DNA of 64,000 nucleotides, from assembly GCA_033816765.1 (NCBI GenBank), contig CM066287.1:992001-1056000 (forward strand). Reading direction: 5' to 3'. Shown piece after piece: positions 760 to 59,039 of the stretch (position 1 is the first letter of the stretch; every line of letters starts with the position of its first letter). The notes under the pieces are model-generated. The model had not been told where the DNA came from and did no database searches. It saw nothing but the letters and a program-made list of their open reading frames with translations. Position numbers and translations under genes: made by a program. This DNA is from Nothopassalora personata. Its lineage: Eukaryota; Ascomycota; Dothideomycetes; Mycosphaerellales; Mycosphaerellaceae.

Positions 760-1250
760 CGAAGAATTACCCGAAGGACCCGACTACGAGAACGGAGACC
801 TGACGCCGGTAGACTAGAGGTTAGCCTCTAACTCCTTAAGAGTAGAGGGGTTACTATCCTCCTCCGACACCTCTTACGCTATATACCGCAATTTCTCGTC
901 CGCGCGGCGGCTATTCTTAGAGAGAACTCGCTCGTTTCTCGTAATCTAGGATTAGAGCGCGGCGAGCTATTTAAGTAGGGAGTTACGGGCTTTTCGATCC
1001 GCTTCTAGCCTAGTAGCTAGTTCCTCCGCTGTCCGGTTAAGCGCCTCCTAGGAGGTAGTAACGTAGGACCTACCTATACGGACGTAGTAGGCATAAGAAG
1101 ACAACATCCTTAGATCGGAAGAGTATTAGTAGGACCGTTTTAGACGACGACAAGTATTATAAGTAAGGGACAAGAGTAGGCTACGAATCCGCTAAGATAC
1201 GAGTAATAAGAGCCTTACGAGAAAGGGTAGATTTAGAAGACATCATTTAG
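760..1250 (-). pseudogene. Decayed antisense Zn2Cys6/coiled-coil ORF of element I
   Basis: On the minus strand the frame shows six positions spaced C-x2-C-x6-C-x11-C-x2-C-x6-C, the Zn(II)2Cys6 pattern. Their codons lie at 1161-1159, 1152-1150, 1131-1129, 1095-1093, 1086-1084 and 1065-1063. Only the second is still TGT. The other five are TAT or TAC, exactly what RIP makes of TGT/TGC. Downstream (about 1060-760) the frame reads as an Arg/Glu/Leu-rich coiled coil broken by TAG codons and includes a RADE string also found in the intact antisense ORF of gypsy C at 57824-58384. Same position (between gag/pol and the 3' LTR) and same orientation as there. That it encoded a DNA-binding protein is inference. 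Confidence 0.6.
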
Positions 1251-44080: not shown

Positions 44081-44107
44081 GCTTAGGCAGTGGCCTCGCC
44101 ATTTCCC
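44067..44107 (-). promoter_or_regulatory. -1 ribosomal frameshift signal of gypsy B
   Basis: Minus-strand G-GGA-AAT at 44107-44101, with GGA and AAT being gag codons six codons before the gag TAA (44085-44083). A 7-nt spacer, then CCACT-GCC pairing with GGC-AGAC-AGTGG (5 bp, 4-nt bulge, 3 bp; loop TAAGCGT). The stop codon lies in the loop. Confidence 0.8.
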
Positions 44108-46116
44108 TGCCCGGCGGCCAGGGAACTGAGGTTGGTGTTGCCTCCGTTGTTGTTACGCGGGCGCGGTGGGCGATAGTCGCCGTCGTAGCCATACATCGGG
44201 CACTCGGTATTGCTGGATAAGTGGGGTCCGGTGCGGCATCGGTAGCACTTGCCCTGCTTCTTCAATTCCTCGCGACCCTCATAGTTGAGCGGTGGGAGGT
44301 CCCGAAGGTGAGCTGGCAAGTCTTCCTTCTTCTTGGTGCCTACGTACTGTGGTGGGCGCTGAACGACGGCGCCGGCAGCACCAGCGGCTGCAGCTGCAGC
44401 TGTGTTGCCCTGGTTCTGGTTGCCGTTGCCGTTGCCGTTCTGGTTGCCTCCTCCATTGCCGCGTGGGCGGTTGTTGTTCTCTTGAGGGTACAGCTGCTCG
44501 GTCTCGTAGAACTGCTCGTCCAGTGCAGTGCACTCTTCGATCACGTCCTGCATGCTGTTCAGACGTCGGTCCACCTCGCGGTCTCCGAAGGTCTTGATGT
44601 AGTAGCGCTTGTTGAGGCGTGTGCGGAACAGCATCAACTCGGTCTCGTCACTCCAGTCAACCCATGCCCTCAGCTTGGAATAGCGTGCGAAGAATGGGAC
44701 GAAGTTCTCCTTCTGAGCCTGTTTGCAGGTAGTGATGTCCACTGCAGCCTTGGTGGCCTCGTTGCGGACGCCGTACTGTCGAGTCATCCAGTCCAACAGT
44801 TCTTCGCCAGTCATGAACTCGTTGAAAGCCTGGTGCCCGGGGATGGGGATGCGAGGCTTCACAGTCTTCTGCACCTCACCGTCCGTCCATCCATACAGGA
44901 AGCGTAGGGCGTCCTGTTCAGTGCGGAACGTCGCGACTGTCAACTTCAGCAGGATGCTTGTGTACCAGCTGTCATAAGTCGGGTCGTCATCGTTCTTGAA
45001 CTTCTTTGGGTCAGGCACACCCTTGCCGATCTTCATGCTGCGGTCGAGGGTGGGGTCGATGTTGATGAGACGCTCCGGCAGGTCCACGAGAGGTGTCTGC
45101 TGCGTGCGGTTGCTGCGACCACCGCCTGACCGCTGCGTGCCTTGTGTGCCTTGGCGCTCATCACGACGTGGTCGGTCATGGTCACGACCACGGCGATCCC
45201 TGTCCTTGTCTCCATTGCCATCGTCATCATCGTCTCCTCCGCCACCTCCTCCTGCTGCCGCCTCACGGTACCGACGCTGGAGCACCTCGAGTGAGGTCTC
45301 GCGGGGTGGTGGTGATCGTGGGCGTGAGCGTGGGCGCGAGCGCGAACGACGTCCTCGTGCCTGGTCCTCTGCTGCTTGCAGACGGACCTTCAGGTCATCA
45401 ACCTCAGCTTGTAATGCCTGGCTCTTCTTCTTCTCCGAGTCGGTGATATCGGCGAACTGCTGACATAGCTCGTTCGCATCCTTGTACTTCTTCTCGACAG
45501 CCTTGAGTTTGAGGGTGTCGGCGTTCTTATTCTTAAGGTCCTGGGCCATCTTCGCGAGGGCGGTCTGTTCGGTCTTGAGCATCCCGTGGATGCGATCGTA
45601 CTCGGCATACAGCGTACGGTACTGCTTGTTCTGAAGTGCATTGGCGCGTTGCATCACATCGAGTTGTTGGCTAGATATGATGGCAGTGTTGAATCCTCGT
45701 AGCACGAAATCGTGGACGGTCTTCGGGTGTTCCTTGGTCAGTGTGGCCAGGTCTTCGGCGGTGATGTTCTGGAAGTCGGCGGCAGCGATGTGTTCGGCTT
45801 CGTCGTGTGAAATGAAGACTGGTGTGTCCTCCTCTTCTCCCACCCTGGGCTCGAAGAGTTCTGTGAAATCAAGCTCACCGTTCTGCTCCCTGTCTTGTGC
45901 TTTGTTCCATGCCTTGTCCAGCTCTTGCTGAAGCGCGACACCGGTGTCAACTGTGACTCGCCGAGTGTCGTCTCCTTGTGTCTGACTGTCGAAACTGGAG
46001 AGGTCGGGGAAAAGAGAGGTGCGCTTGCCTTGTGTCTGTGACTGCTGGGAAGTCATGTTGTTTCCTTCAACGCGGCCTGTTGCTGAGGCCTTTGGTGCGT
46101 TGGTTTCCTTGGGCAT
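44083..46116 (-). CDS. gag: Gypsy B Gag
   Basis: 677 codons from ATG at 46116. N-terminal Gln/Thr/Ser-rich part, coiled coil about 160-260, an Arg/Ser/Pro-rich segment about 265-300 followed by Gly/Asp/Arg-rich repeats, gag core about 380-560 (YDSWYTSILLKL, W.DGEVQKTV), an Asn/Gly/Gln- and Ala-rich linker, and zinc knuckle C-x2-C-x4-H-x6-C near 627. The Arg/Ser and Asp/Arg stretches may add RNA binding. Ends at TAA inside the frameshift hairpin. Confidence 0.88.
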   Translation of the reverse strand: MPKETNAPKASATGRVEGNNMTSQQSQTQGKRTSLFPDLSSFDSQTQGDDTRRVTVDTGVALQQELDKAWNKAQDREQNGELDFTELFEPRVGEEEDTPVFISHDEAEHIAAADFQNITAEDLATLTKEHPKTVHDFVLRGFNTAIISSQQLDVMQRANALQNKQYRTLYAEYDRIHGMLKTEQTALAKMAQDLKNKNADTLKLKAVEKKYKDANELCQQFADITDSEKKKSQALQAEVDDLKVRLQAAEDQARGRRSRSRPRSRPRSPPPRETSLEVLQRRYREAAAGGGGGGDDDDDGNGDKDRDRRGRDHDRPRRDERQGTQGTQRSGGGRSNRTQQTPLVDLPERLINIDPTLDRSMKIGKGVPDPKKFKNDDDPTYDSWYTSILLKLTVATFRTEQDALRFLYGWTDGEVQKTVKPRIPIPGHQAFNEFMTGEELLDWMTRQYGVRNEATKAAVDITTCKQAQKENFVPFFARYSKLRAWVDWSDETELMLFRTRLNKRYYIKTFGDREVDRRLNSMQDVIEECTALDEQFYETEQLYPQENNNRPRGNGGGNQNGNGNGNQNQGNTAAAAAAGAAGAVVQRPPQYVGTKKKEDLPAHLRDLPPLNYEGREELKKQGKCYRCRTGPHLSSNTECPMYGYDGDYRPPRPRNNNGGNTNLSSLAAGQGNGEATA

Positions 46117-51390: not shown

Positions 51391-51550
51391 TGTAAGGGGT
51401 AGCCTAGTAGCTAACCCTTATATATAGCCTTACATGTAACATACGGTCGCGACCGGCTACTAAGCCGCACGTAACACGTATACGTATACCTTACGACGCG
51501 CGATACGTCTTAAACAAAAGGCAAGAATTAGTTTATCTACGACTAGTAGG
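51391..51550 (+). repeat. Gypsy E 5' LTR, part 1 (decayed)
   Basis: Starts TGTAAGGGGT at 51391 and is interrupted by gypsy C at 51551. It resumes after the TSD and ends CCCTTAACA at 59039. Confidence 0.65.
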
Positions 51551-52155
51551 TGTTACGGATCGGATTGGGCCTGCAACCGCAAGCCAATCAGATACCTCAC
51601 AGTTAAGCGGGCGCAGCCGCTGCAAAGTGTGTTACGGATCGGATTGGGCCTGCAACCGCAAGCCAATCAGATACCTCACAGTTAAGCGGGCGCAGCCGCT
51701 GCAAAGTGTGTTACGGATCGGATTGGGCCTGCAACCGCAAGCCAATCAGATACCTCACAGTTAAGCGGGCGCAGCCGCTGCAAAGTGCTCTGCTGATCTG
51801 CTTGATCTGTCGAACAGATCAACAGATCAGAGCAGAGTACGACGCGAGACGATCTGCTGCTCTGTTTGATCTGTCGAACAGATCAACGGATCAAACAGAT
51901 CAAGACTATGAATCTCCTTTGTATTTAGGAGCGCTGAGAATCCCTTATGGCTTCGAGGCGTTCAACTCACTGTTCAATATCACTGTTTGGAATACACCAC
52001 AACCCAACCTCTGCCTCATTGTTTCTTGAGCCTTTGTAAGGTCAAGACACTACTGCTTCATCACTCTCCCTCAAACTTCCCATCGGCCCGAGAACAAACC
52101 CGATTGAGCTTGTCTTCTTGACTTGTGATATCATTAGGTTATACCAAACCTAACA
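51551..52155 (+). repeat. Gypsy C 5' LTR with three 79-bp tandem units
   Basis: The units start at 51551, 51630 and 51709, each beginning TGTTACGGATCGG, so each has CGG-AT-CGG. Then two GATCTG-rich near-perfect hairpins (about 51787-51838 and 51852-51902), a TATTTAGG TATA-like box near 51931, and the end CCTAACA. Confidence 0.9.
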
Positions 52156-52167
52156 GCTTTGAACGCC
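52156..52167 (+). promoter_or_regulatory. Gypsy C primer-binding site, probably self-priming
   Basis: GCTTTGAACGCC follows the LTR without TGG. TTGAACGCC (52159-52167) is the exact complement of GGCGTTCAA in the LTR (51958-51966), about 25 bases after the TATA-like box, where a transcript could start. Same layout as in gypsy B and as in Tf1-type self-priming. Confidence 0.55.
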
Positions 52168-52174
52168 CTCTACG

Positions 52175-53587
52175 ATGGGAGACCGACAGAGTGAACGGGG
52201 AACACCCGCCCCCAGTGAAGCAGGCAGAGCCCGACGACCTCAGACCGCAAACGATGCTATCAATGCCTTGGCTACTCATACAGGCAACGACACCCTCAAG
52301 GTTGGCAAGCCAGAATTCTACTATGGCGATCGAGACAAGTTCGACACTTGGGTTGCTCAGATGGATATGTACTTCTTGTTCAACTCCATGGCTGAGAACC
52401 TCAAGCCTGTTTTTGCCACTACCTTCCTGAGAGGACGAGCACAGCATTGGGTCAAACCCTTCCTTAGGACCTACCTGGACAGCAACGGCAACGACAACGC
52501 TAACGGGATCTTTACGTCTTACGGTCATCTCAAGAGCGCGATGAAGAGCGTCTTTGGCATCTCGAACGAGGTTGCTACTGCTGTACGCGTCATCCAACAT
52601 CTGACCCAGAAGACATCCACTGCCGACTACGCTGCCAAATTCCAGGAGTACGCCCAGCTTACTGATTGGGACGACGAAGCACTTCAAGTCATGTACCGGA
52701 GAGGATTGAAGGAGCATGTCAAGGATGAGTTAATGAGGGACGGTCGAAGGATCGATGACCTGGGATCTCTGGTCAAGGTCACGATCGATCTTGACGACAG
52801 ACTCTACGAGAGAGCTCTAGAGCGACGATACGACTCCAAAGTATCCGGAAGAGCCGGATTTACCCCAGGCTACGACAATCGTAACAAGGGCTTTAGCGAC
52901 AACTACAGTAAGCCCAGAAACAAGCCATACTACGGACCACAGCCAATGGAGCTCGACGTCACCGAAAGGGGTCGCAAGATCAGGAACAGCAAGGGGAACA
53001 GAAGACCCCCGAGCTCAGGAAAGGAAACACGAACCTGCTATGGATGTGGCAAACCTGGCCACCTAGCAAGGGACTGTCGCGGTAAGAATATGGTGCGCCG
53101 CGAACAGTTCAACACGATGCAACGACGAACTAGTAAACTTGAGAGCAGTGTCGGGTCTCCAGAAGACACCGACTATACTCAAGGAGTGGAGGAGAGAGCT
53201 AGCGAAGGAAGCACAGAGCCTCTCCTGGACCCCTCACAGGGACGAGGAGGATACCATGGGCAACAGATGACGGTTATTTCATCTGAATTGCGAAACCAAC
53301 CACAACAGTTCAACATGATGACACGAGGTCACACCAATTCCCCACGAGGACCTATACGAATGATCTTTCCAGACCACCCGGATGCGCAAGGAACCTGGGA
53401 ACAACTCACTACAGTAGTGAGGGAACGATTCCCAGAACACGCGCGACAACGACAAGCGTGGCTCGACATTACACATAAGATCCTACAGGTCATAGAGGAC
53501 TTCCCCAACGTAACGGAAGAACCCTACAGAAGTCAACGACGCGAACTCCTGACGTTCTATGAAGGAGCCCGCCAAGAAGTCCTATGA
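52175..53587 (+). CDS. gag: Gypsy C Gag
   Basis: 470 codons from ATG at 52175, 19 bases after the LTR. Retrotransposon gag core about 45-225 (KVGKPEFYYGDRDKFDTW, FLRGRAQHWV, F..YAQLTDWDD), basic linker, zinc knuckle C-x2-C-x4-H-x4-C near 288-301. The C-terminal part from residue 381 (second codon of a MMTR string at 53315) to the stop is absent from the decayed copy at 46730-51390. It stops at TGA 53585-53587, followed by CTG, a leaky UGA-C context, and the frame stays open for 293 further codons. Confidence 0.88.
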   Translation: MGDRQSERGTPAPSEAGRARRPQTANDAINALATHTGNDTLKVGKPEFYYGDRDKFDTWVAQMDMYFLFNSMAENLKPVFATTFLRGRAQHWVKPFLRTYLDSNGNDNANGIFTSYGHLKSAMKSVFGISNEVATAVRVIQHLTQKTSTADYAAKFQEYAQLTDWDDEALQVMYRRGLKEHVKDELMRDGRRIDDLGSLVKVTIDLDDRLYERALERRYDSKVSGRAGFTPGYDNRNKGFSDNYSKPRNKPYYGPQPMELDVTERGRKIRNSKGNRRPPSSGKETRTCYGCGKPGHLARDCRGKNMVRREQFNTMQRRTSKLESSVGSPEDTDYTQGVEERASEGSTEPLLDPSQGRGGYHGQQMTVISSELRNQPQQFNMMTRGHTNSPRGPIRMIFPDHPDAQGTWEQLTTVVRERFPEHARQRQAWLDITHKILQVIEDFPNVTEEPYRSQRRELLTFYEGARQEVL

Positions 53588-53611
53588 CTGGACCGAACAA
53601 GGGAATTTGGA

Positions 53612-54469
53612 ATGATGACAAGAAGAGTCGACTACGAGATCGAATCCGAATCTCGAAATGGTCACGGAAGCCTTCATTGGCGATTCTGTTACCAAGACTC
53701 GTGTCAGGTTCACTACTCCGCCAAGTTAGGAGCAGGGTATTGGCCTCAGCAGCCGCGAGGAACCCTGGGAGCGCAACACAGGCAGGATGCCAAGCTCCAG
53801 GAAGTGGACGTCGACGAATCCTGCTTCGACGACGAGGACAAGGAAAACCAGGACCCAGGATGGAACGGATCGTGGTCACCCGAACCACAGGAAGAAAGTC
53901 AAGAAACCACCGGGCTGGACAACATCCAAGAAGAACAGGATCCGGAAGAATCAAGCGACGAAGATTCCTCCGAAGGAGAAGAGAGCGACACCGACGACGA
54001 CAACGAAGTCCAAACGTTTACTATGGACGCACCAAAAATGATCTTCGAATTACTCGTACATGTAATTCGGAGAAGCGAAGAAGTCTTCCCAAAGATACAG
54101 CGACGACGCTACCTGCACCCAGAACAGTTCGATCTAATGCTCGACACGATGCGAGGGATGGTCTGGAGACACCCCATCGTGGAACACGACAACGATAGCG
54201 CCAAGATCGTACAGGAGCGACCACCCATTGGAAGCAAGATGACCGCATTTGGATACATCACGCCGTCAGGAATAACGATCACGAATGAACTTAGGAAGTC
54301 AGTTCAGCACGTGAAAGCACTCTACTCAGAAACGCAGAAGATCCAGGAACGCAACAACAGAGAAGCATGGAGACCAGGAGCTTCGCTACAGGTTCAAGCC
54401 GAAGCCTTGCGACACGAAATGCAACGTTCTACCCACGCATCGGGAAAAGGATCGACTCCCCAGGAATGA
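53612..54469 (+). CDS. Gypsy C in-phase pre-pol ORF (acidic gag extension)
   Basis: 285 codons in the same frame as gag, eight codons after its TGA. It could be reached by UGA readthrough or by reinitiation at ATGATG 53612. It has a Trp/Cys/His motif (LHWRFCYQDSCQVH), a strongly acidic stretch (about residues 65-135, rich in Glu, Asp and Ser), then a helical region with HPEQFDLMLDTMRG. No known enzyme signature. The decayed copy fuses this segment directly to gag, which argues it is part of Gag rather than a separate protein. It overlaps pol by 103 bases and carries the slippery site. Confidence 0.7.
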   Translation: MMTRRVDYEIESESRNGHGSLHWRFCYQDSCQVHYSAKLGAGYWPQQPRGTLGAQHRQDAKLQEVDVDESCFDDEDKENQDPGWNGSWSPEPQEESQETTGLDNIQEEQDPEESSDEDSSEGEESDTDDDNEVQTFTMDAPKMIFELLVHVIRRSEEVFPKIQRRRYLHPEQFDLMLDTMRGMVWRHPIVEHDNDSAKIVQERPPIGSKMTAFGYITPSGITITNELRKSVQHVKALYSETQKIQERNNREAWRPGASLQVQAEALRHEMQRSTHASGKGSTPQE

Positions 54470-57400
54470 GCGACCAAAGGGAGTTATGCAACACTACACA
54501 GGCTCAAGCATCAACAACAGTGTTTCGAACGAAGATTATCGTCAACGGGCAACGGACATATGCCATGATAGATTCCGGAGCGAGCGGGAACTTTGCCTCC
54601 GAATCATTTGTCAAACGACACGGATTAGCTACCCGAAGAAAGGAAGAGGGGTATGAATTGATCGCGGTAGACGGATCATCCTTACCCAGTGTGGAGCGCG
54701 AGACGATACCGCTGCCACTTGCAATCCAACAGCACCACGAGGAAATCACCTTGGATGTTACTGACATGGCCAGTCATGACATCGTACTTGGGATGCCTTG
54801 GTTGAGAAAGCACAACCCAGTAATCGACTGGAGAAGAGGAGTACTCAGGTTTGAACAATGCGATTGCGTTATCGACATTGAACCTACGCAGCGGCAGCGT
54901 TCGCTGGTAGATGAGGTAAGACAGCTAAATAGGATACAGCTTGCACCGACTAGAAGGACAGAAGAACCACCTTCGACTGGGATAGACACCGACTTGGGGC
55001 AGTTGGGTCATGACATCACCGGAACGGATGGAAGTAACGCACCATCGAAGAATACCAACATTTCGGAGTTGGATATTCCCAAAGAATATCGCAAGTGGTC
55101 GCGACTCTTTGAAGAGGAAAGAGGCAGGGACGCCTTACCTAAACACGCACCATGGGATCATAAGATAAACATTCAGCCAGGAAAAGAGCCTCCATGGGGA
55201 CCCCTATATCAAATGTCCGAAAAAGAGCTCCAGACCTTACGGGAATGGCTGAAGGAGAAGCTAGCGAAAGGTTGGATACAGCGGTCCACCTCAAGCGCAG
55301 GCGCTCCATGCATGTTCGTTCCAAAACCAAACGGGAAACTACGACTCGTACAAGACTACCGGAAGTTGAACGAGATCACGATCAAAAACCGATATCCGCT
55401 ACCGAACATCGAAGAAGCACAGGACAGATTAACCGGATCAGACTGGTACACCAAGATCGACCTACGAGATGCCTTCTACGCTATACGAATGGCGGAAGGA
55501 GAAGAATGGAAAACCGCTTTCAGAACACGATACGGACTATACGAGTTTAAGGTCATGCCAATGGGATTGACCAACGCACCCGCATCCTGCCAGGACCTTG
55601 TCAACGAAACACTTAGAGACCTACTCGACGTATGCGTCATCGCATATATGGACGACATACTGGTCTATACCAAAGGATCCCTCCAGGAGCACATCAAGCA
55701 AGTCCAGGACGTATTTGAACGGCTCACCGGAGCAGGGTTCAAGACAGCACCAGAGAAATGCGAGTTCCACAGGAAAGAAGTCAAATTCTTGGGCTTCATC
55801 ATCAGCACCACGGGGATCGCGATCGACCCTGCAAAGACACAATCGATCAGAGAATGGCCAGAACCAAAGTCAGTCAAGGACGTACAATCGTTCCTTGGAC
55901 TAGCCAACTACAACCGGAAATTCATCAAGGACTATTCGAAAACAGCAGCACCAATAACGATGCTTACGAGGAAAGACGTCAACTGGAAATGGGGAAAGGA
56001 ACAATCTGACGCGTTCCAACGACTCAAGGAGCAATGCGTGTCAGCCCCCACGCTTCGACTATTCGATGGTAGCAAGGAAGTCCACATCGAGACCGACGCG
56101 TCCGATATGGCAATAGGCGCATGTCTAACACAGACACACGATGGGAAGCGACACCCAGTAGCCTATTACTCCCGAAAAATGACCACGGCGGAACAGAACT
56201 ACGACATCCATGACAAGGAACTTCTAGCCATAGTTGCTGCCATGCAACATTGGAGAGTATACGTCGAAGGACCACCAAAGTTAACGATTCTATCAGACCA
56301 CAAGAATCTCACATACTTTACGACAACAAAGGAACTTACCCGAAGGCAAGCCCGCTGGTCGGAGCTGCTGGGACAGTACAAGTTCGAGATCAAATATACT
56401 CCAGGGACAGAGAACGGCCGCGCCGACGCGCTGAGCCGAAGAAGCGACTACATGGAAGGAAAAGAACCAGTGCAACACAAGATACTCAAGACAAACCCCG
56501 ACGGAAGTCTTAGTGCCAACACGAAAGAGTTCAACAACATCGTGCGGATACTACGCGACACAGAAGAACAATTCCCAATATCGCAAGGGAAATACCAAGT
56601 GCCAAAGGACCGAGAGGAAGAATGTATACGACAACATCACGACGATCCGCTGTACGGACACCCTGGAACAACGAAAACAGTGGACCTCATACAACGCAGC
56701 TTCTCATTTCCACAGATGAGACAAAAAGTGCTACGCTACGTCAAACGCTGTGTACACTGTCAACAGAACAAGGCTGCCCGACATGCAAAATACGGTCACC
56801 TTCAATTCAGGACTCCTCCTACGAAACCATGGGACGAAGTCACGATGGATTTCATCACCAAACTCCCCATCTCACGGGATCAAGTCACCGAACAACCCTA
56901 CGACATGATACTGGTCATGGTTGACAGACTTACAAAGTATACACACTTCATCGCAGCATCAGAGACATACACTGCAGAACAGCTCGGATACTTGATACTG
57001 GACAGGTTGATCCGATACCATGGATTCCCAGAAGTTTTCATCACGGACAGAGACAAGCTGTTCACTTCCAATTACTGGAAAACACTCATGGGAACAATCG
57101 GCATCAAACATAAACTGTCAACAGCCTACCATCCGGAGACCGACGGACAAACGGAAAGAGCAAATCAAACCTTGGAACAATATCTACGGCACTACATCAA
57201 CCATACACAAGACAATTGGGTTTCACTGCTGCCAATGGCACAGATTGCACTGAACAACCACAAATCAGAGACAACTTCTACGACGCCATTCTATGCGAAC
57301 TTTGGAAAGGATCCTAACCTGTTTGGAGAACCTGGATTCCACCCACAGGCCGAAAGAGCAATCGTGACGACGGATACTCTTAAGGAAGTGCACAAAGAAG

Positions 57401-57939
57401 CGCAAAAAGCGATCACGGATGCACAACATAAACTGTCTCACCAACGACAAGATGGCAGAAAAATGGCGCCTCTGCTTAAAGAGGGGGATAAGGTCTATCT
57501 CCTCACAAAAAACTTGAAAACAAGGAGACAGACCAAGAAGCTGGATCATGTCAAGGTCGGACCATTTTTCATTGACAGAATCGTCGGACCAGTCAACTAC
57601 CGCCTACGCCTACCACCCGACGCAAAGATCCACCCAGTCTTCCATGTTTCCAGGCTGGAACCCGCGGACGCCGAAACACCTTGCCAAGAGAACTTCCATT
57701 TCGAGCCGGAAGCAGAGAACGAATTCGAAGTCGAAAAAATCCTGAACAAGAAAGGTCAGCGATACCTTGTCAAGTGGAAAGGATACGACGAATCAGAAAA
57801 TACCTGGGAACCGAGAGAGAACCTCAAGAATTGCCGGGTGCTCCTGATGGAGTACCTCCGACACCAGAAGAAACCCGGAGCGAAGAAGGACCGTACAACC
57901 AGAAATCCGACGACACGTCGTATCCCTGATCGACCATGA
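54367..57939 (+). CDS. pol: Gypsy C Pol polyprotein (PR-RT-RNase H-IN-chromodomain)
   Basis: 1190 open codons. The in-frame ATG at 54367 is probably not the start; entry by -1 slip at 54442-54448 would begin at about residue 27. Protease AMIDSGASGNF near 68 is canonical. RT about 280-470 with YMDDILVYT near 426. RNase H about 560-680 (IETDASDMAIGACL, LSDHKNLTYF). Integrase HHCC near 755-800 (H-x3-H ... C-x2-C), core VTMDFITKLP near 828, ITDRDKLF near 893, HPETDGQTER near 925. Chromodomain FEVEKILNKKGQRYLVKWKG near 1118-1165. No long tail after the chromodomain, unlike gypsies A and B. Its 3' end overlaps the antisense ORF by 116 bases. Confidence 0.92.
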   Translation: METRSFATGSSRSLATRNATFYPRIGKRIDSPGMSDQRELCNTTQAQASTTVFRTKIIVNGQRTYAMIDSGASGNFASESFVKRHGLATRRKEEGYELIAVDGSSLPSVERETIPLPLAIQQHHEEITLDVTDMASHDIVLGMPWLRKHNPVIDWRRGVLRFEQCDCVIDIEPTQRQRSLVDEVRQLNRIQLAPTRRTEEPPSTGIDTDLGQLGHDITGTDGSNAPSKNTNISELDIPKEYRKWSRLFEEERGRDALPKHAPWDHKINIQPGKEPPWGPLYQMSEKELQTLREWLKEKLAKGWIQRSTSSAGAPCMFVPKPNGKLRLVQDYRKLNEITIKNRYPLPNIEEAQDRLTGSDWYTKIDLRDAFYAIRMAEGEEWKTAFRTRYGLYEFKVMPMGLTNAPASCQDLVNETLRDLLDVCVIAYMDDILVYTKGSLQEHIKQVQDVFERLTGAGFKTAPEKCEFHRKEVKFLGFIISTTGIAIDPAKTQSIREWPEPKSVKDVQSFLGLANYNRKFIKDYSKTAAPITMLTRKDVNWKWGKEQSDAFQRLKEQCVSAPTLRLFDGSKEVHIETDASDMAIGACLTQTHDGKRHPVAYYSRKMTTAEQNYDIHDKELLAIVAAMQHWRVYVEGPPKLTILSDHKNLTYFTTTKELTRRQARWSELLGQYKFEIKYTPGTENGRADALSRRSDYMEGKEPVQHKILKTNPDGSLSANTKEFNNIVRILRDTEEQFPISQGKYQVPKDREEECIRQHHDDPLYGHPGTTKTVDLIQRSFSFPQMRQKVLRYVKRCVHCQQNKAARHAKYGHLQFRTPPTKPWDEVTMDFITKLPISRDQVTEQPYDMILVMVDRLTKYTHFIAASETYTAEQLGYLILDRLIRYHGFPEVFITDRDKLFTSNYWKTLMGTIGIKHKLSTAYHPETDGQTERANQTLEQYLRHYINHTQDNWVSLLPMAQIALNNHKSETTSTTPFYANFGKDPNLFGEPGFHPQAERAIVTTDTLKEVHKEAQKAITDAQHKLSHQRQDGRKMAPLLKEGDKVYLLTKNLKTRRQTKKLDHVKVGPFFIDRIVGPVNYRLRLPPDAKIHPVFHVSRLEPADAETPCQENFHFEPEAENEFEVEKILNKKGQRYLVKWKGYDESENTWEPRENLKNCRVLLMEYLRHQKKPGAKKDRTTRNPTTRRIPDRP
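54442..54484 (+). promoter_or_regulatory. -1 ribosomal frameshift signal of gypsy C
   Basis: G-GGA-AAA at 54442-54448, in the frame of the acidic ORF (GGA starts at 54443). A 6-nt spacer, then ACTCCC (54455-54460) pairing with GGGAGT (54479-54484). A slip gives AGG ATC GAC, the pol frame. The upstream frame stops at 54467-54469, inside the loop. Confidence 0.8.
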
Positions 57940-58384
57940 GCCCCCAGGTGTTAGGAGACAGGTGAAAGTCCAGCGACTCCTGCTGCTCCAGCTCCGACAA
58001 GGCTGCGGACTCCACAGCAATGGCCTCGTCGGCTCTCTGATCCACGAGCTCCATTTGCTTCCGAAGCCGCTCCTCCTTTGCGTATGCAGTGTTCAGAGTC
58101 TCCCGAGCACGCTCTTGAGCCTCGCGGGCCTCCTTAATCTGCCTCTCCAACTTCTTCTTCTCACCGATCAGACGATCGAACTCGGAACGCGACACCTTCA
58201 CGTCACAACGAACGTTGCGACGCACACACTCGTTGCACCGCCCCGACGACACGTGTACCTTGCACACGCGCGAATGCGCTCGACAGTTGGAACAAGACCG
58301 AACCATTATCTCTCCAAAACTTTCGATCGTTTCTGCTAACTTGAGGCGACGAGAGGTGCTGGATGAAGATGACACCTTTGGCAT
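57824..58384 (-). CDS. Antisense Zn(II)2Cys6 coiled-coil protein of gypsy C
   Basis: 186 codons from ATG at 58384 on the strand opposite to gag-pol, 88 bases from the 3' LTR. Ser-rich start, then Cys31, 34, 41, 50, 53 and 60 in C-x2-C-x6-C-x8-C-x2-C-x6-C spacing with basic residues between, the signature of fungal binuclear zinc-cluster (Gal4-type) DNA-binding domains. A strongly heptad-like Glu/Arg/Lys/Ala helix follows at about 64-137, as in the dimerisation helices of that class. The last 50 residues are Gly/Ser-rich and overlap the pol end. No activation domain is recognised. By family analogy it would act in the nucleus as a dimeric DNA binder; its targets are unknown. A RIP-decayed counterpart lies at 760-1250. 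Confidence 0.8.
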   Translation of the reverse strand: MPKVSSSSSTSRRLKLAETIESFGEIMVRSCSNCRAHSRVCKVHVSSGRCNECVRRNVRCDVKVSRSEFDRLIGEKKKLERQIKEAREAQERARETLNTAYAKEERLRKQMELVDQRADEAIAVESAALSELEQQESLDFHLSPNTWGLMVDQGYDVSSDFWLYGPSSLRVSSGVGGTPSGAPGNS

Positions 58385-58472
58385 GATGAGAACATGGACA
58401 AAGAAACGACGACGGCCGAGGCAACAGAGTTATGACCTCAGCTCGTGGCGAGCTAGGCTAAGAGGGGGATGG
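58385..58472 (-). promoter_or_regulatory. Leader of the antisense ORF and sense polypurine tract
   Basis: 88 bases between the antisense ATG and the 3' LTR. The sense strand ends in the purine tract AAGAGGGGGATGG. Any antisense promoter must lie here or in the LTR. Confidence 0.4.
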
Positions 58473-58998
58473 TGTTACGGATCGGATTGGGCCTGCAACC
58501 GCAAGCCAATCAGATACCTCACAGTTAAGCGGGCGCAGCCGCTGCAAAGTGTGTTACGGATCGGATTGGGCCTGCAACCGCAAGCCAATCAGATACCTCA
58601 CAGTTAAGCGGGCGCAGCCGCTGCAAAGTGCTCTGCTGATCTGCTTGATCTGTCGAACAGATCAACAGATCAGAGCAGAGTACGACGCGAGACGATCTGC
58701 TGCTCTGTTTGATCTGTCGAACAGATCAACGGATCAAACAGATCAAGACTATGAATCTCCTTTGTATTTAGGAGCGCTGAGAATCCCTTATGGCTTCGAG
58801 GCGTTCAACTCACTGTTCAATATCACTGTTTGGAATACACCACAACCCAACCTCTGCCTCATTGTTTCTTGAGCCTTTGTAAGGTCAAGACACTACTGCT
58901 TCATCACTCTCCCTCAAACTTCCCATCGGCCCGAGAACAAACCCGATTGAGCTTGTCTTCTTGACTTGTGATATCATTAGGTTATACCAAACCTAACA
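58473..58998 (+). repeat. Gypsy C 3' LTR with two 79-bp tandem units
   Basis: Units start at 58473 and 58552. The rest is identical by eye to the 5' LTR. Confidence 0.9.
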
Positions 58999-59039
58999 GT
59001 AGGTCGTAGGCGTGCTATATATTACGACATCCCTTAACA
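58999..59039 (+). repeat. Gypsy E 5' LTR, part 2 (decayed)
   Basis: GTAGGTCGTAGG... to CCCTTAACA, the right end of the LTR begun at 51391 (about 195 bp when joined). Confidence 0.65.

Follow-up and report, generated by a model that had tools for sequence, protein, structure and literature searches.

What does a gene that is read against gag and pol do inside a fungal retrotransposon? The question is raised by a stretch of 64,000 nucleotides from Nothopassalora personata (the window), which holds a chromodomain Ty3/gypsy element at positions 51551-58998, with an open reading frame (ORF) on the opposite strand between pol and the 3' long terminal repeat (LTR). We put a probability of roughly 60% on the reading that this antisense ORF (aORF) is a functional accessory gene, that it encodes a small dimerising zinc-cluster regulator of its own LTR, most likely an activator, and that the gene and its sites are exchanged between elements as one block. 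The argument is built on the gene family and its conservation, on the pattern of exchange, on the linkage between the type of the aORF and the type of the U3 region of the LTR, and on the motifs specific to each type. The cassette exchange itself lies mostly outside the window.

The aORF (57824-58384, minus strand) is 186 amino acids (aa) long, starts with an ATG and shares 116 bp with the pol ORF. Its orientation and its place in the interval between pol and the 3' LTR make it an antisense aORF of an LTR retrotransposon, just as an earlier sequence-only reading of the window had described it. In the version carried by the window element, which we call type A, cysteines at residues 31, 34, 41, 50, 53 and 60 (58205-58294, minus strand) have exactly the spacing C-x2-C-x6-C-x8-C-x2-C-x6-C given in that reading. 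The pattern of the Zn(II)2Cys6 cluster (Pfam PF00172) is C-x2-C-x6-C-x5-16-C-x2-C-x6-8-C. Type A agrees with it exactly, and six cysteines are present in all 18 types that we distinguish in the genome, with types I, J, K, L, M, N and O having 11-13 residues between the second and the third. For the long coil that had been proposed to follow the cluster, AlphaFold2 predicts a single helix over residues 66-139 (57968-58189, minus strand) after two short helices within the cluster (mean predicted local distance difference test score 85.6, predicted template modelling score 0.56), and the structural matches, weak as they are, all belong to the Zn2Cys6 class among the nine listed. The assignment to a Zn(II)2Cys6 module, which the sequence-only reading had made outright, is thus favoured by the cysteine pattern, the predicted coil and the structural matches, but stays below the curated Pfam cut-off of 21 bits. 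Type A has no match to PF00172 at E<=1, types E and G1 reach E 0.72 and 0.91 (10.4 and 10.1 bits), and five of the 55 members of set A2 match at E<=0.1, the best at 0.011. With the fungal Zn(II)2Cys6 factors GAL4, LAC9, PPR1, HAP1 and Pho7 the aORF shares the six-cysteine cluster and the coil after it, together with weak structural matches, but it has no long middle region of the host type and is encoded by an element. A nucleocapsid knuckle of the CCHC type was also considered and rejected, since the spacing is wrong and gag carries its own knuckle.

Is it then a gene at all? A chance ORF is ruled out by the homologues, the cysteine conservation and the codon-position pattern. The identical protein is encoded at no fewer than 15 genomic loci, and related loci are many, some intact and some with TAG or TAA stops of the kind that repeat-induced point mutation probably left; these counts are lower bounds, with no more than 150 candidates scored per search. 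Our working set consists of the 18 intact types, of which only N and O form a close pair, and the genome holds at least 18 intact lineages. A profile built from the first seven aORFs found 68 public proteins and a profile of the types with a long loop found 89, with two in common and 155 in total. They come from fungal and metagenomic sources, mostly the latter; the named sources, known from the proteins alone, include Paraphaeosphaeria, Pseudogymnoascus, Pyricularia, Lithohypha, Cryoendolithus, Cladosporium, Xanthoria, Rachicladosporium and Rostrohypoxylon. No relative was found in the viral contig collection that was searched. Two of the 68 are named Zn(2)-C6 fungal-type domain in UniRef. 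When these were aligned with the seven (75 rows), the six cysteine columns held a cysteine in 72 of the 72 rows with a letter there, the members having been found by a profile that itself contains the cysteines; a relaxed six-cysteine pattern matches 134 of the 155 public proteins and fails in 21.

The nucleotide changes point the same way. Pooled over ten pairs, the differences at codon positions 1, 2 and 3 are 0.35, 0.27 and 0.58, and in the close pair N-O, which is unsaturated, they are 0.07, 0.08 and 0.37. The ratio of nonsynonymous to synonymous change (dN/dS) is 0.16 for G1-G2 and for I-L, 0.23 for G1-G3 and 0.25 for A-C, at dS values of 1.5 to 1.9 that are near saturation. The base at -3 from the start codon is a purine in all 15 types compared (nine A, six G), and an upstream ATG is found within 60 nt of the start in seven of the 15. 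The idea of a self-encoded regulator depended on homologous antisense ORFs in other copies of the element and on purifying selection that keeps the six cysteines, and both were found. Because there are at least 15 identical copies, numerous intact and divergent lineages and conserved cysteines, the aORF is more than a product of chance, and as far as its sequence can tell it behaves as a real antisense gene.

One homologue, P0138, carries the name Env of Cercospora beticola metavirus 1 and belongs to the aORF family by profile (E 4.1e-40). This name could indicate that the aORF encodes an Env-like or capsid-related accessory protein and not a regulator, which we find very improbable, as the name was given by similarity only, the cysteine pattern and the structural neighbours of the aORF are of the Zn2Cys6 type, and the ORF runs antisense to gag-pol. 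P0138 itself is without several of the six cysteines. It comes from an RNA-seq contig of 1247 nt that carries only this ORF, and from this a separate aORF transcript may exist in a relative.

The different types of the aORF sit on element bodies that are nearly the same. Elements with gag and pol carry five types (A, C, F, G4 and M). Another element has only gag, of about 330 aa, and aside from the aORF no ORF of 180 aa or more was seen in 9 kb around one copy. There are at least 121 copies of this gag-only element with a gag protein that is 98% identical or more (121 scored of 1033 candidates), and 81 of them have an aORF in the expected place, of type E in 27 copies, G1 in 26, G7 in 14, G3 in seven, G2 in five and G5 in two. 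Of the remaining 40 copies 16 were inspected; one had none, and 15 had further types (H in five, I in four, L in three, J in two, one of them truncated, and K in one). Types N and O are also found on gag-only elements, which brings the number of aORF types on one gag-only body to 13. Seven gag-only representatives have 94.5-99.3% DNA identity over the 1000 bp before the aORF, against 23-63% between their aORF proteins, and the pol ends of A, C, F and M are 86.0-95.4% identical in DNA, against 35-53% between the aORFs, G4 being more distant (74-76% DNA). Simple divergence in place is not an acceptable explanation to this pattern, as gag has 94-99% and R mostly 89-100% DNA identity, yet the aORF and U3 are near the shuffled level; the exceptions in R are type H (73-79%), where the retrieved sequence ends early, and G5 (62-66%), which truly differs downstream of the TATA box. 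In a tree of the 18 aORFs the gag-only and gag-pol carriers are intermixed, and the starred branches force four changes of body, a number that suffices in 207 of 500 label shuffles; judged from their sequences, the aORFs do not cluster by body type. We also observed at least six gag-only units with a type G1 aORF placed head-to-tail with a constant spacing of 2056 bp (genome C12:1355698-1367583).

The borders of the identity tell what is exchanged. In most pairs of types with the same body, DNA identity stops about 20-30 bp from the stop codon of the aORF, is absent through the aORF and U3, and resumes some 30 bp ahead of the TATA box, which reads GGCACTATATAG in gag-only elements. The divergent block is interrupted by a short conserved stretch at the start of the LTR; G5 is an exception and differs further downstream. 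These borders imply that the exchanged block consists of the aORF and the upstream promoter region, without the core promoter, R and U5. The type of the aORF and the type of U3, which were assigned separately, agree in all of 54 distinct loci (15 reference copies and 39 others), the loci counted being those whose aORF is 90% or more like its type. The linkage table has 100 rows, 58 of them with such an aORF and all 58 with a matching U3, and removal of four duplicates (window/L015, L070/L078, L072/L080 and L073/L082) leaves the 54. The other 42 are made up of 32 rows without a U3 match, eight of the same type and two from the locus L083; the test covered the types other than M, N and O. Overall similarity between aORFs and between U3 regions is weakly correlated (r 0.19, P 0.012; among gag-only elements r 0.24, P 0.043). 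L083 (genome C7:938700-939900) holds a gag-only element whose U3 is of type G7 and in which any antisense ORF is shorter than 100 aa, and one of its rows is an H-like fragment of 32 residues beside this U3. As it has a G7 U3 but no aORF, the ORF may be supplied in trans.

It could be argued that the linkage is passive, i.e. that the protein is real, but that template switching at the conserved end of gag or pol and in the TATA-R region transfers the aORF and U3 together, while the motifs in U3 are bound by host factors. The distance from the aORF to the start of the LTR is only 73-155 bp in the 14 types with a located start (no TGTTACGG start was found in G5, and its U3 region was taken from the aORF onward), and enhancer repeats in U3 are common among LTR elements, both of which fit such a process. 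The conserved stretch between the aORF and U3 would nevertheless allow the two to be separated, yet there were no split intact copies among those examined, and the most variable part of the protein is the loop between the second and third cysteines. We regard passive linkage as unlikely.

What, then, does U3 contain that could be matched to a protein? The repetition of 7-mers in U3 is above all 500 dinucleotide shuffles in nine of 15 types (A, C, E, F, G2, G3, G5, H and I), and in the others the observed repetition is reached by 3 (G4), 6 (G7), 16 (G1), 24 (J), 79 (L) and 138 (K) of the 500 shuffles. The words differ with type: CAGATCA is found seven times in A, ACTGATC six times in C, CGAGCAG 18 times in G3, AAGAGATC seven times in I and CAGATCC four times in H. 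GAGAGCA is common to E, F and I, and CTGATCA to C and G7; the core GAKCA was picked after the data were seen. In type A the seven copies of CAGATCA lie in the variable U3 (58481-58755), where one aORF type differs from another, against none in 6317 bp of internal sequence. Palindromes with arms of 8-9 bp are present in U3 of types A, C, E, G7 and H. That of type A, TTGATCTGT-CGA-ACAGATCAA, is 21 bp long and occurs 69 times in the genome, 60 of them in the 15 type A elements with two per LTR, which in the window are at 51802-51822 (genome C1:1043802-1043822) and 51866-51886 in the 5' LTR and at 58645-58665 and 58709-58729 in the 3' LTR. Eight of the nine occurrences outside type A elements are paired 64 bp apart, and a reversed control sequence does not occur in the genome. 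CGG triplets, a guess from GAL4, were dropped as the principal motif when the repeated words turned out to be GATC- or GAGC-like, and in this the aORF elements differ from the fungal Zn(II)2Cys6 factors, with their pairs of CGG.

Short motifs that are repeated in the own non-coding DNA, as in these nine types, are reminiscent of VANC of the Arabidopsis VANDAL elements, which as described in PMC5735166 and PMC10398659 is likewise encoded by an element and has diverging tandem motifs in the non-coding DNA of that element, but belongs to a DNA transposon, is a sense gene, and has had its binding and demethylation shown experimentally. By analogy the aORF could be an anti-silencing factor that binds dense repeats in the element encoding it and acts on repressive chromatin by removing or blocking it, with a cassette that diversifies to escape silencing of the non-coding sequence. 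G3, I and G5 have arrays of repeats in U3, which would suit this, as would the variable number of a 79-bp unit among type A copies (two units in the 3' LTR in ten of 15, one in five). The motifs are however clustered in a single block directly before the TATA box, where an upstream activating sequence would be, the C-terminus of the protein looks like an activation domain, and no sequence link was seen: Pfam scans of five types gave no standout plant transposon family, and no direct comparison with VANC was made. We know of no Zn2Cys6 cluster in VANC, and consider an anti-silencing role of this kind improbable.

The protein varies most in the loop between the second and third cysteines. In the six nearest pairs with different motifs, 8 of 43 positions are identical in the Cys2-Cys3 loop, against 42 of 54 between Cys3 and Cys4 (Fisher P 4.9e-9, with pairs that are not independent), and the loop is the less similar of the two in 26 of 31 pairs within groups. 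The Cys2-Cys3 loop of GAL4 carries lysines that contact DNA. The C-terminal region (57827-57967, minus strand) is acidic and aromatic with few K and R; in the last 50 residues of the types K+R is 0.024 against 0.203 in the rest, W+F+Y is 0.089 against 0.027 and acidic residues make up 0.181, where the segment for type H was shifted inward by hand, its ORF continuing into the antisense of gag. The same composition is found in 130 of the 155 public proteins. Acidic activation domains are composed in this way, and the C-terminus of the aORF resembles them.

This has to be weighed against a repressor that keeps copy number down or shuts out related elements in trans, with cassettes that escape each other's repression. 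A near-constant body with exchanged regulator and operator is the pattern of lambdoid phage immunity, and it is seen here too; several types coexist, each in many near-identical copies, and the palindromes in A, E, G7, H and C are operator-like. The acidic, aromatic C-terminus is better suited to activation, though, and copy numbers are high (at least 15 for A, and at least 27 for E adjacent to gag and 26 for G1), and we find a repressor quite unlikely.

We thus prefer the activator. U3 of the 3' LTR would drive the antisense aORF, the protein would dimerise through its coil and bind the repeated sites in U3 of both LTRs, and the bound protein would raise transcription of the gag or gag-pol RNA, perhaps also of its own. 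Transcription from the 3' LTR, dimerisation, binding of the motifs, and activation rather than repression or anti-silencing are the steps that we infer. Exchange of the whole block would then hand an element a new private circuit, and many regulator-promoter types could run in parallel in one genome. The sequence-only reading had suggested that the element encodes its own regulator for control of the LTR, for choice of target sites or against host silencing. Control of the LTR is the alternative to which the match of aORF and U3, the type-specific motifs and the activation-domain-like C-terminus indirectly point; for choice of target sites no evidence was found in the single target site duplication that was looked at.

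The rest of the element agrees in most respects with the claim that it is intact. The target site duplication GTAGG is present to the left (51546-51550) and right (58999-59003), and the 5' LTR (51551-52155) and 3' LTR (58473-58998) are identical over 526 bp, with a difference in the number of the 79-bp unit, which lies in U3 and takes in the start of the LTR (three units at 51551-51787, two at 58473-58630). A purine-rich stretch just before the 3' LTR (58460-58472) is probably the polypurine tract. On the plus strand, pol (54367-57939, 1190 aa) contains protease, reverse transcriptase, RNase H, integrase and chromodomain, and membership of the chromoviruses is clear from a Pfam scan (RVT_1 3.9e-38, RT_RNaseH 3.2e-38, Chromo 2.5e-14, Integrase_H2C2 1.9e-18), while rve has 30.3 bits against a cut-off of 32.6. 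What does not agree with an intact element is gag, which is split into two plus-strand ORFs in different frames, one of 470 aa with Retrotrans_gag and the CCHC knuckle (52175-53587), and one of 285 aa (53612-54469) that, with translations read by eye, resembles the C-terminal part of the single 690-aa gag ORF of the relatives L049 and L061.

Elsewhere in the window, an ORF of 677 aa at 44083-46116 (minus strand) resembles gag of another LTR element, and at about 784-1158 (minus strand, genome C1:992784-993158) there is a degraded relative of the type G aORF with 33% identity and eight stops. Fourteen stop-bearing relatives of type L (80%) with equal scores and stop counts are found on the contigs C9 (first 21 kb), C20, C21, C30, C31, C33, C34, C39 and C40, mostly small ones, and are perhaps subtelomeric duplications. 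Another six stop-bearing relatives with equal scores are found at genome C1:5714137-5776189, three per strand and about 10.8 kb apart in each half, in a large inverted arrangement.

How much of this is new? HBZ of human T-cell leukaemia virus type 1 is an antisense gene near the 3' LTR that encodes a coiled-coil transcription regulator. The aORF has this position in common with HBZ and with the antisense ORFs of the plant elements Grande, RIRE2 and Retand, and no sequence relation is claimed; the function of the plant ORFs is described as not known in the review PMC7264820. The supposition that an antisense accessory ORF would be novel to fungal gypsy elements had to be given up. According to citations in PMC8365987, PMC7264820 and PMC4227169, Zhao et al. 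(Virology, 2011) had already described the antisense gene brtn of Boty in Botrytis cinerea. Similarity to BRTN has been noted in Monilinia (PMC5987419), and the review PMC7264820 places brtn with the ORFs that lie between pol and the 3' LTR. Like the aORF, brtn is an extra antisense ORF in a fungal chromodomain gypsy element; we compared it by description only, and the descriptions cited mention neither a zinc cluster nor an exchange of types matched to U3. Antisense ORFs are accordingly known from plant LTR elements and from Boty, and what appears to be new is the zinc-cluster identity of such an ORF in a fungal LTR element and the exchange of aORF and U3 as a cassette, neither of which was found in the open-licence papers that were searched.

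A wider hypothesis, which we put forward tentatively and hold to be somewhat less probable than its negation, is that the LTR retrotransposons of Nothopassalora personata are split into regulatory compatibility groups, each defined by a swappable antisense zinc-cluster activator and private sites in U3. A body would change group by swapping the cassette, much as lambdoid phages swap immunity regions, and the gag-only elements, which are non-autonomous, would have kept the regulator and dropped pol, which would leave each group with a transcription circuit of its own. A natural experiment is at hand in the gag-only body with its 13 or more pairs of aORF and U3, and function can be tested as a matrix of proteins and promoters. 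Should the pairs prove to match, fungi would have element-encoded regulators whose sites evolve along with them, a retrotransposon counterpart to the VANC system of plants and the immunity cassettes of phages, and a source of ready-made DNA-binding specificities.
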